From positions 1-64,000 of the forward strand of contig NZ_QTQI01000001.1 of NCBI RefSeq assembly GCF_003853705.1: DNA of 64,000 nucleotides, given 5' to 3'. Both the position numbers and the translations under genes were made by a program. The notes under the pieces are model-generated. The model saw only the letters and a list, made by a program, of their open reading frames with translations. It was not told the DNA's origin and did not search any database. How positions within the stretch are numbered: the first letter of the stretch is position 1; every line of letters begins with the position of its first letter. This DNA is from Burkholderia sp. Bp8992 (GTDB lineage: Bacteria; Pseudomonadota; Gammaproteobacteria; Burkholderiales; Burkholderiaceae). This document shows positions 7,345 to 18,392 of the stretch, piece after piece.

Positions 7345-8439
7345 TCAGTTCTTGTGATCGGTATGCACGGTCACGACCGCGGACAGGCCGGGGCGCAGCA
7401 CGTGCTCGATGCCGGGCTGCGGATCGAGGTGCACGCGCACGGGCACGCGCTGGACGATCTTCGTGAAGTTGCCGGTCGCGTTCTCGGGCGGCAGCACGCT
7501 GAAGGTCGCGCCGGTCGCGGGCGCCAGGCTGTCGACGCGACCGTGCAGTTTCGTGCTCGACGCATCGAGCGACACGTCGACGCGATCGCCCGCATGCATC
7601 TTGCGCAACTGGTCTTCCTTGAAGTTCGCATCGATCCACAGCCCGGAGGCCGGCACGACCGTCAGCAGCGGCACGCCGACGTTCGCGAGCATGCCGACGC
7701 GGCCCGTGCGGTTGCCGACGTAGCCGTCGACCGGCGAGCGGATCGTCGTGTATTCGACGTTGAGCGCCGCGACGCGCTGCGCGGCCAGCGCGGTGTTCAC
7801 GCGGGCCTGCGCATCGGCGAGCTGCGCGCCGAGCACGTCGAGTTGCCGCTTCGCTGCAAGCAGCGCGGCGTCGCTGCGTTCGACGGCCGCGCCGGCCTTC
7901 GAATAGTCGGCGTCCGCGCGCTCGACGATCTGGTTCGACACGGCGTCGGATTTGACGAGCTCGCGGTAGCGCACGCGGTCCGATGCGGCGCGCGTCAGTT
8001 CGGCCGACGATGCGTTCTTGTCCGCCGCATGCTGGCCGATCACCGCGAACTGCAGTTGCTGCTTCGCTTCGAGTTCGATCACGGCGGAGCGCGCGCTGTC
8101 GACTTCGGCGGTCGCCTGTGCGAGCTTCGCGTCGTAGTCGCGCGCATCGAGCTGCACGAGCACGTCGCCGGCCTTCACGCGCTGGTTGTCGGTCACGAGA
8201 ATCCTGTCGACGAAGCCGTTGACCTTCGGCGCGAGCACCGTCACGTCGCCGCCGACATACGCATCGTCGGTGCTCTCCTGGAAGCGCAGCACGAACAGCC
8301 AGTCGAGCATGGCCGCGGCCACGACGACGACGGTGACGCCTACCGCGATGCGCATCCACGGCACGCGCCGCAGCTGCTTCGCGGGCCGCTCGGTTGTGGC
8401 TGCTTCGCGTGACGAGGCAGCGTCTTGGGTCGTATCCAT
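7345..8439 (-). CDS. Membrane fusion protein of the efflux pump (EmrA/HlyD family)
   Basis: The 364-residue periplasmic adaptor links the MFS exporter to the outer membrane factor. A short cytoplasmic N-terminus is followed by one membrane segment near residues 30-51 (IAVGVTVVVVAAAMLDWLFV). A lipoyl/barrel-sandwich part (VLAPKVNGFVDRILVTDNQ), a central coiled-coil hairpin rich in Ala, Arg and Glu, and a beta-barrel part containing TIRSPVDGYVGNRT follow. The start is supported by AGGTGA. It is the first structural gene after the local MarR regulator, and a copy of the shared operator motif lies just upstream of its start. Confidence 0.93.
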   Translation of the reverse strand: MDTTQDAASSREAATTERPAKQLRRVPWMRIAVGVTVVVVAAAMLDWLFVLRFQESTDDAYVGGDVTVLAPKVNGFVDRILVTDNQRVKAGDVLVQLDARDYDAKLAQATAEVDSARSAVIELEAKQQLQFAVIGQHAADKNASSAELTRAASDRVRYRELVKSDAVSNQIVERADADYSKAGAAVERSDAALLAAKRQLDVLGAQLADAQARVNTALAAQRVAALNVEYTTIRSPVDGYVGNRTGRVGMLANVGVPLLTVVPASGLWIDANFKEDQLRKMHAGDRVDVSLDASSTKLHGRVDSLAPATGATFSVLPPENATGNFTKIVQRVPVRVHLDPQPGIEHVLRPGLSAVVTVHTDHKN

Positions 8440-13532: not shown

Positions 13533-16772
<3,240 letters not shown>

Positions 16773-16956
16773 CGGGCGGTCATTGCGAGGGTCGCTCGGA
16801 CGGTAGTCGCGTGGTGATGACCGGCTTGAGCGACGGTTCGCGGCTCGCCGCCGGATGCGCCGATTCACGCGTGCCGGACTGCAGCGGTTCGCAGCGCCAC
16901 CGCGCAACGTGGCGGCGCGAACCTCGCACATCGCGACCGCGTTCGACCGGCGCGGC

Positions 16957-17361
16957 TCAGGCCGCTTCGGCCCGCTCTTCCTCTTCCGCCTCGAGCATCG
17001 CCTTGACGATCAGGTAGACGGCCGGCAGGTCGTCGTCGTCGCGGCGCCAGTCGACCGGTTCCTCGACGTCCGCGGCGACCAGCCTGCTGTCGCGCAGCCG
17101 GATGAACGCGTCGACGACGGTCGGATCGTTGCGGTTCAGGAAACCGGCGTTCGAGAACGCCAGCTCTTCGACGTTCAGCAACGCCTGCCAGCTCATCGTG
17201 CGGACGGCCGCCGGATGGGTGCGGCGGCGCAGGCCCAGCGCCCGCTGCGCGGGGCCGCCGACGACACGCTGCAGATCGACGACCGCCCGCTGCGCGGCGC
17301 GCTCGAAGTGGACGGGATTGAAGCCGGGTTGCTCGGGATCGAATGCGGATGACTGGAACAT
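16957..17361 (-). CDS. Orphan protein under a predicted LexA-controlled promoter
   Basis: The 134-residue soluble protein has no family I recognise. It has a positively charged middle (LGLRRRTHPAAVR), an acidic C-terminus (EPVDWRRDDDDLPAVY, EAEEEERAEAA) and no signal peptide or membrane segment. The ATG at 17361 has GTGAGG upstream. About 60 bases before the start lies a near-consensus LexA box overlapping the -10 of a good sigma-70 promoter. By position it should be induced by DNA damage. It stands alone, convergent with fadH. Its molecular role is unknown; acidic small SOS proteins in other bacteria include division inhibitors and nuclease modulators, but nothing here identifies which. Confidence 0.8.
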   Translation of the reverse strand: MFQSSAFDPEQPGFNPVHFERAAQRAVVDLQRVVGGPAQRALGLRRRTHPAAVRTMSWQALLNVEELAFSNAGFLNRNDPTVVDAFIRLRDSRLVAADVEEPVDWRRDDDDLPAVYLIVKAMLEAEEEERAEAA

Positions 17362-17419
17362 GGTCGCCTCACTAAAGACCGTCTCGGGATGACGGAATTC
17401 GGGTCAAATGACGCAGAAA

Positions 17420-17439
17420 CACTGTAAATATATACAGTG
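17420..17439. promoter_or_regulatory. LexA (SOS) box
   Basis: CACTGTAAATATATACAGTG has the CTGT-N8-ACAG core with perfect outer arms (CACTGTA/TACAGTG) and an AT-only centre. This matches the SOS box recognised by LexA in beta- and gammaproteobacteria. It overlaps the -10 hexamer of the promoter for the orphan gene at 16957-17361. Confidence 0.85.
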
Positions 17440-17455
17440 ATTGGCGGACTTTCAA
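17427..17455 (-). promoter_or_regulatory. Sigma-70 promoter of the SOS orphan
   Basis: Reading on the minus strand, -35 TTGAAA (17455-17450) and -10 TATATT (17432-17427) are separated by 17 bases. The LexA box covers the -10, the usual geometry of a repressed SOS promoter. Transcription would start near 17420, leaving a leader of about 60 bases. Confidence 0.75.
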
Positions 17456-17463
17456 GCCCCCGA

Positions 17464-17478
17464 TGACAGTAAATGTCA
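17464..17478. repeat. Short inverted repeat
   Basis: TGACAGTAAATGTCA has perfect 5-base arms around GTAAA. It lies between the LysR gene end and the SOS promoter. It has no T-run and could be a binding site, but no partner is evident. Confidence 0.35.
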
Positions 17479-17498
17479 GCCGCGTCGCGACCGGCGTG

Positions 17499-18392
17499 TC
17501 AGACCGCCGCCGCGATCGTCTCCCGCAGCCACCGATGCGCCGGATCGCGATGCACGCGCTCGTGCCACAGCATGGACATTTCATAGCCGGGCACCTCGAC
17601 CGGTGCGTCCACCACGCGCAGCGCGGGCACGTCGCGCACCAGCCGCTCGGGCAGCATCGCGACGAGATCGGTGCTCGCGACGGCCGACATCACGAACAGG
17701 AAGTGCGGTACCGACAGCACGACACGCCGCGCGGCACCGACCTTCGCGAGCACTTCGTCCGTCACGCCGAAGAAGCCGCCGCCGTCGGGCGACACGATCA
17801 CGTGCTCGAGCGTGCCGAATTGCGCGAGCGTGGGGCGCCGCTTCAGCTTCGGGTGACCGGCGCGGCCGATCAGCACGTAGCGCTCGATGAACAGCGGCAG
17901 GCGCCGCATGCCCGGTGGCGACCCTTCGGTCGTATGAAAGGCCAGGTCGATGCCATTTCGTTCGGCATCCTGCTCGATGCGCGGCGGCACGAGTTCGACG
18001 ACGGCCAGCCGCGTGCCAGGCGCGGTCGAACGCAGCGTGCGCAGCGCGGGCAGCACGATCGTCGATTCGCCGTAGTCGGTCGCGGCCACGCGCCACGTGT
18101 TCGTCGCGGTGGCGGGATCGAACTGCGTGGCCGGAACCACCGCGCGCTCGACGGCTTCGAGCGCATCGCGCAACGGCTCGCGCAGCGCTTCCGCGCGCGC
18201 GGTCGGCCGCATTCCGCGCGGCCCGGGCAGCAGCAGCGGATCGCCGAACACGTCACGCAGTTTCTGCAGCTGCACGCTGACCGACGGCTGCGACATGTTC
18301 AGCTTCTCGGCCGCGCGCGTGACGTTGTGCTCGGCGAGCAGCACGTCCAGCGTGACGAGCAGGTTCAGATCGAGCCTTCTGAGATTATTCAT
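17499..18392 (-). CDS. LysR-family regulator (NodD-like)
   Basis: The 297-residue protein starts MNNLRRLDLNLLVTLDVLLA and has the HTH helices NVTRAAEKLNMSQPSVSVQL, followed by a LysR substrate-binding domain. The opening pattern is that of the NodD/NahR-like branch, which often responds to aromatic or quinone-like compounds. It is divergent from the quinone reductase gene, with 86 bases between their starts that include several T-N11-A-type sites, so it most likely controls that gene. Confidence 0.9.
   Translation of the reverse strand: MNNLRRLDLNLLVTLDVLLAEHNVTRAAEKLNMSQPSVSVQLQKLRDVFGDPLLLPGPRGMRPTARAEALREPLRDALEAVERAVVPATQFDPATATNTWRVAATDYGESTIVLPALRTLRSTAPGTRLAVVELVPPRIEQDAERNGIDLAFHTTEGSPPGMRRLPLFIERYVLIGRAGHPKLKRRPTLAQFGTLEHVIVSPDGGGFFGVTDEVLAKVGAARRVVLSVPHFLFVMSAVASTDLVAMLPERLVRDVPALRVVDAPVEVPGYEMSMLWHERVHRDPAHRWLRETIAAAV

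Follow-up and report, generated by a model that had tools for sequence, protein, structure and literature searches.

Organization of the locus

The stretch of DNA analysed here, 64,000 nucleotides in length and referred to as the window, carries on its minus strand a gene (ORF 16957..17361, ATG at 17361) for a 134-residue protein that is assigned below to a subtype of the DUF2471 family. A ribosome-binding site, GAGG (17367..17370, minus), read from the sequence, is situated 5 nt 5' of the ATG. The upstream neighbour, a LysR-type regulator gene (17499..18392, minus), lies outside the unit. Behind the DUF2471 gene there is no close same-strand gene, and a convergent flavin oxidoreductase gene ends at 16772.

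A predicted LexA-type operator occupies 17420..17439 (minus), ~60 nt from the end of the LysR-type gene. The 20-nt box at 17420-17439 is CACTGTAAATATATACAGTG, given on the gene strand as CACTGTATATATTTACAGTG. The initial annotation described it as a near-consensus box with symmetric flanks; the box stands, whereas its full symmetry does not, as the near-palindromic 20-mer differs from its own reverse complement by 2 mismatches. A promoter scan located the -35 hexamer TTGAAA (17450..17455, minus) and the -10 hexamer TATATT (17427..17432, minus), and TTGAAA-17-TATATT (17455..17427, minus) is the sole promoter-like site in 16700-17700, with a shuffle mean of 0.1. The -10 hexamer lies inside the box, which confirms the overlap annotated initially, and the box, the promoter and the ribosome site all share the minus strand, also as annotated. 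A weak terminator-like hairpin of 5 pairs (17395..17379) between the promoter and the start codon is probably due to chance, since the shuffle mean is 0.4.

The bare core CTGT-N8-ACAG occurs a single time in the window and is weak evidence alone, because 0.31 occurrences are expected by chance and at least one is present in 26 of 100 shuffles. When the whole 20-mer is searched with up to 3 mismatches, the window holds no second site and 0 of 100 shuffles contain one.

Conservation among close orthologues

A protein scan of genome contigs yielded 33 orthologous loci, all from Burkholderia and 73-99% identical, with the window as the 34th copy. The exact CTGT-N8-ACAG box is present 75-86 nt 5' of the ATG in 33/33 orthologues (34/34 including the window). 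The check proposed at the outset, whether the box is kept with the gene in close relatives, thus came out in its favour, with no orthologue of the window subtype lacking the box. Alignment of the 34 upstream regions reveals 15 of 16 invariant core columns versus 32 of 117 flank columns, and a mean column identity of 99% in the box versus 70% in the flanks. The -10 TATATT and the hexamer spacing of 17 are identical in all 34 copies; TTGAAA is found in 33 of them, the remaining one (L054) having TTGATA. Immediately 5' of the ATG, GTGAGGCGACC is present in 29 of the 33 orthologues.

The upstream flank contains the LysR gene at 31/33 orthologous loci, the copy at L050 being more than 1 kb further off, and the flank of L055 is interrupted by a contig end. 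The flavin oxidoreductase gene is located downstream at 32/33 loci. At L063 (B. guangdongensis) the nearest neighbours are different and the box is still kept. A close orthologue was observed in 32 of 37 same-genus genomes and the gene is missing from 5 of 37, so it is not universal in the genus.

Family membership

The initial annotation placed the protein in no recognised family. This is contradicted by Pfam, which matches residues 24-129 to DUF2471 (PF10616) with an E-value of 1.9e-4 and 22 bits, against a cut-off of 25. The orthologues in G031 (25.5 bits) and G026 (25.1 bits) exceed the cut-off, those in G029 and G020 reach it only when neighbouring pieces are counted, and the remaining orthologues are below it. 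DUF2471 is the sole match in a Pfam search of the window protein up to E 10, with neither DinI (PF06183) nor SulA (PF03846) among the matches. In a 21-row alignment of diverse members, W58 and D98 are invariant and P113 is found in at least 90% of rows. The window protein shares these conserved W, D and P columns, and other members are also preceded by LexA boxes; by sequence comparison, it is a divergent DUF2471 member. It departs from DUF2471 in an extra basic loop and an acidic tail, and its gene stands alone, without a recombinase gene behind it. The basic middle and acidic tail noted initially are present in the protein, whereas the 21-row alignment identifies the former as an insertion found only in the window subtype and does not support the latter as a family feature. 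The calculated pI ranges from 4.3 to 6.8 among 19 listed members.

A canonical DUF2471 gene with a clear match is present in 65/65 Burkholderia genomes. DUF2471 was further found in at least 164 of the 299 genomes searched within the bacterial family (10 of 25 genera; 15 first-look candidates scored per genome), in at least 5 of 398 genomes of a phylum draw, 4 of them from the same bacterial family (11 candidates per genome), and in at least 6 of 399 genomes of an order draw, one being marginal (10 candidates per genome); with 10-15 candidates scored per genome in these draws, an absence is uncertain. The 14 control genomes gave no DUF2471 match.

LexA-type boxes across the family

Within 300 nt on the upstream side of the domain, 120/148 family loci carry the exact box, compared with 2/146 equal-sized downstream stretches, both of which belong to the other-genera set. 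Resolved by type, it is found at 34/34 loci of the window type, 29/30 and 30/30 canonical chromosome-2 loci in two genera (59/60), 5/5 loci of other genera, 18/18 exonuclease-linked loci, 3/9 of the small type, 1/14 on Burkholderia plasmids, 0/2 on imuABC-linked Paraburkholderia plasmids, and 0/6 on viral contigs, two of which (L197, L198) have no upstream sequence. The 28 loci without the exact box thus comprise 13 Burkholderia plasmid copies, 6 of the small type, 2 behind imuABC, 6 viral and 1 canonical. The 148-locus count omits L001-L030, which coincide almost completely with L031-L063, the additional window-type copy L157 (box present), and the wider, second and unrelated stretches (L169-L178, L181, L184-L186, L188-L196, and from L203 onward). 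L064-L123 represent the 30 top-scoring hits each from the genus and the family rather than a random draw, and many of the copies counted are close kin. The sole canonical exception, L092 (chromosome 2 of G034), carries a group II intron (1848-1924, minus; Rfam RF00029, 65 bits) that ends just upstream of the canonical DUF2471 gene, at the position of the LexA box in its relatives, and no box is left.

Four further plasmid copies have a box with one mismatch. Among the Burkholderia plasmid copies, a box with at most one mismatch precedes 0/6 of those behind intact imuABC versus 5/8 of the others (one-sided Fisher p 0.03), a pattern that is only suggestive because the copies are related and not independent. 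If transcripts reading through from the imuABC promoter conferred the SOS control, copies behind intact imuABC would be expected to lose their own box.

Conservation therefore strongly supports the SOS control proposed initially: the box accompanies 34/34 window-type copies, L063 included, and 120/148 family loci. On these sequence data we regard LexA control of the window gene as highly probable, and such control very likely extends to most of the DUF2471 family.

Gene partners on chromosomes, plasmids and phages

On chromosome 2, the box, the DUF2471 gene and a same-strand tyrosine recombinase gene follow one another in 58/60 loci. At L169, the DUF2471-recombinase unit is separated by less than ~6 kb from a Rep3 initiator gene and adjoins a KfrA_N gene. 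Near the chromosome-2 Rep3 gene of some Burkholderia, in L169 (1710), L171 (12312) and L172 (1711), a palindrome akin to the box recurs, reading CTGT(A/G)CATGCATACAG or the complement of this; L170 lacks it. The palindrome also occurs near DUF2471 at L126 (214), L127 (1215) and L174 (214), in a genus with small genomes, though not at L180; a second LexA site and an origin element are the candidates for its identity.

Of 23 plasmid records, 15 were fetched (H1, H3, H4, H11, H12, H14, H15 and H23 were left out) and 14 are of the recombinase type. The order H-NS, DUF2471, tyrosine recombinase is found on 14/14 of these Burkholderia plasmids. Intact imuA-imuB-dnaE2 lies directly upstream on 6 of the 14, each operon behind a perfect box, and dnaE2 or a remnant of it on 4 more. 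Both Paraburkholderia plasmids (2/2) present a perfect box, imuA-imuB-dnaE2, a 22-nt gap and DUF2471. We also note DndC-like and DrmC-like phospholipase D genes downstream of the DUF2471-recombinase unit at L161 (9651-12088), with similar genes on other Burkholderia plasmids, as well as an SMC-type ATPase gene downstream of the unit on several Burkholderia plasmids; these may constitute a defence or repair island.

In the exonuclease-linked genus, a homologue of an RNase_T-domain protein with a weak GIY-YIG match is encoded downstream of DUF2471 at 18/18 loci, a partner that we take to be reminiscent of the SOS nuclease Cho. In genus g27 (L133, L134, L136, L137, L176), a conserved protein of ~89 residues is encoded close behind the small-type DUF2471, and L176 has a further copy of it that is preceded by a perfect box of its own. 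Four phage contigs extend upstream of DUF2471, and in each a short ORF precedes the gene; the single ORF tested (L201) is weakly Arc-like, and genes that we presume to be lysis-like are some kb away. The arrangement of short ORF and DUF2471 in these viral contigs (L199-L202, ~7560-8282), devoid of a LexA box, resembles a moron or a toxin-antitoxin pair.

As several different DNA genes accompany the family, no one partner is singled out. For the action on DNA, division or repair that the initial annotation considered possible, these neighbours favour a setting in DNA damage tolerance or recombination, but neither an enzyme motif nor a known DNA-binding fold was found.

Relation of the window gene to the plasmid module

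A 42-row tree groups the window type with the Burkholderia plasmid type at a support of 99/95, the bootstrap being unsettled and long branches, that of the window among them, being flagged. Both types have the box, or a decayed form of it, over the -10 hexamer, with a TTGAA-type -35 ahead. Given this grouping and the common layout of box and promoter, the solitary window gene probably represents a chromosomal relative of the plasmid module.

Structural predictions and known small SOS proteins

The model of a phage member is all-helical with four helices (pLDDT 87, pTM 0.80), two of the five models being poor (57, 49). Structure prediction for the window protein, suggested in the initial annotation, gave a poor model (pLDDT 61) in which the order of helices is like that of the phage member. 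Comparison of the models with the PDB by sequence and structure found no meaningful match and no resemblance to DinI or a known protein. With only two invariant residues, DUF2471 is more likely to be a binding module than an enzyme.

DinI and plasmid ImpC are small, acidic, LexA-controlled proteins encoded by phages as well as by chromosomes and, next to mutagenesis polymerases, by plasmids; in enterobacteria they tune the RecA filament or the translesion mutasome. DUF2471 members are likewise small, acidic and for the most part LexA-boxed, and occur on chromosomes, polymerase-bearing plasmids and phages. In contrast, DinI has no sequence match to the window protein, and its fold is alpha/beta, whereas the phage DUF2471 member is predicted to be all-helical. 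SulA resembles DUF2471 as a small LexA-controlled protein, the control being predicted for DUF2471, with a possible checkpoint role in common, and differs in having no sequence match to the window protein. Searches of 65 Burkholderia genomes returned neither SulA nor DinI among the matches (65/65 for each), while both were detected in the E. coli control.

SOS regulon in related genomes and literature

In the related genome G018, CTGT-N8-ACAG precedes lexA (two sites) and recA, and also genes that we take to be imuA and uvrA. Genome-wide, the bare motif is hardly enriched there, with 38 sites versus 31 reversed-control sites; 14 of the 38 regions were inspected. Perfect boxes at C1:1610456 and C2:1670493 (L231, L239) are followed by genes that presumably encode SOS-response-associated peptidases. 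Another candidate SOS gene, behind CTGTACATCCATACAG (box at C2 1521518; L238:1351-1998), encodes a 215-residue protein with no Pfam match.

The initial annotation proposed a new SOS function. The novelty holds in part, since passages of a 2012 comparative study report that two hypothetical genes of beta-proteobacteria were predicted to be LexA-regulated: hypA, whose homologues are confined to multi-chromosome beta-proteobacteria, and hypB, apparently restricted to Burkholderia (PMC3323433). The described distribution resembles that of canonical and window-type DUF2471; the passages give no protein family or gene partners (PMC3323433). To equate hypA and hypB with these two types is a guess that is about as apt to be wrong as right. 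It is weakened by a partial window-like match (38 residues, 66%) in a Paraburkholderia caribensis record and by the boxed gene of L238, which is a rival candidate for hypA or hypB. A plasmid imuA2B2C2 operon behind a CTGT-N8-ACAG box has been shown to be LexA-dependent in Ralstonia with a Cupriavidus plasmid (PMC4151985), and for B. cenocepacia, induction of the SOS response has been documented (PMC10944698). Our literature search found no mention of the word DUF2471.

Proposed mechanism and alternatives

We propose that LexA bound to the operator would cover the -10 hexamer and block the promoter. Activated RecA would lead to LexA cleavage and a burst of a small, helical, acidic protein. Most DUF2471 members, whether on chromosomes, plasmids or phage contigs, would belong to the same response, and the window copy and the plasmid copies beside imuA-imuB-dnaE2 would descend from a common ancestor. 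The analysis documents the operator, the promoter, their conservation, the family, the gene partners and a helical model for a phage relative, and from these we infer LexA binding, induction and the target of the protein. It is reasonably likely that, with this mechanism as a whole, the window gene is an SOS gene of Burkholderia repressed by LexA and coding for a divergent DUF2471 member; that it truly belongs to the emergency repair response of bacteria, in a capacity yet to be explained, is very probable. By analogy with DinI and ImpC, the most economical mode of action would be that of a small, non-enzymatic partner tuning the RecA filament or the translesion mutasome, which we put forward as a tentative possibility.

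It is highly improbable that chance or promoter constraint accounts for the box and that SOS control does not extend to the gene. The bare motif in 26/100 shuffled windows, the -10 hexamer, which alone would keep part of the box, and the 38 versus 31 sites in G018 are compatible with such an origin, but the invariance of 15/16 core columns in 34 copies versus 32/117 flank columns, and the family-wide association of 120/148 versus 2/146, argue against it. Given SOS control, the main rival to a modulator of RecA or translesion synthesis, in the ranking that we infer, is a SulA-like brake of division or growth for the SOS response of Burkholderiaceae, lacking sequence kinship to SulA. SOS division inhibitors are small and lineage-specific, and SulA was not found in any of the 65 Burkholderia genomes, all of which carry canonical DUF2471, boxed in 59/60 fetched canonical loci of two genera. 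The phage copies behind an Arc-like ORF, some kb from presumed lysis-like genes, would also suit a brake. Nevertheless, we consider it unlikely, as the copies adjoin repair and recombination genes rather than division genes, and up to four copies per genome would be odd for a lethal brake.

Two further proposals assign DUF2471 to one of its partners. The DUF2471-recombinase order holds at 58/60 chromosome-2 loci and on 14/14 Burkholderia plasmids even with an identity as low as 24-31% between the two recombinase types, and the L169 pair lies close (<~6 kb) to a Rep3 initiator gene, with a KfrA_N gene alongside. This is consistent with a factor that assists or controls the adjacent recombinase, which would resolve dimers of chromosome 2 or plasmids after SOS-induced recombination. 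Yet no recombinase is present in the fetched flanks of the window gene or of the 18 exonuclease-linked copies, nor at the Mycetohabitans or imuABC-linked Paraburkholderia copies, nor, by eye, in the phage contigs, and shared ancestry of plasmids and chromosome 2 could hold the pair together; such a role seems decidedly unlikely. On two Paraburkholderia plasmids DUF2471 follows dnaE2 after 22 nt, and on six from Burkholderia it comes after imuABC and H-NS, positions that suggest a dedicated subunit of the ImuA-ImuB-DnaE2 mutasome; this role is quite improbable as well, because imuABC was found in fetched flanks only at plasmid loci (among the loci tested, from L064 on). Modulation of RecA or the translesion machinery remains the mode that we favour.

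The initial interpretation is, overall, partly supported. In a wider reading, which we consider doubtful though worth stating, DUF2471 would be the missing SOS effector family of Burkholderiaceae, with a helical fold for which no solved counterpart was found, doing the work of SulA or DinI by another route; it would be LexA-controlled on chromosomes and common to plasmid mutagenesis cassettes, phages and recombinase modules situated close to a replication gene of a secondary chromosome.

Implications

Proteins that had no name beyond a DUF number are linked here to the DNA-damage response of a bacterial family that matters both in the clinic and in the environment. In the 65 genomes of Burkholderia, the genus examined, neither SulA nor DinI, the customary small SOS brakes, was detected. 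With conserved operators and contrasting partners to work from, the question of function can be put directly to the test. As DUF2471 relatives ride plasmids with error-prone polymerases, their function would bear on damage-induced mutation, and it would also bear on multi-chromosome upkeep and plasmid biology.
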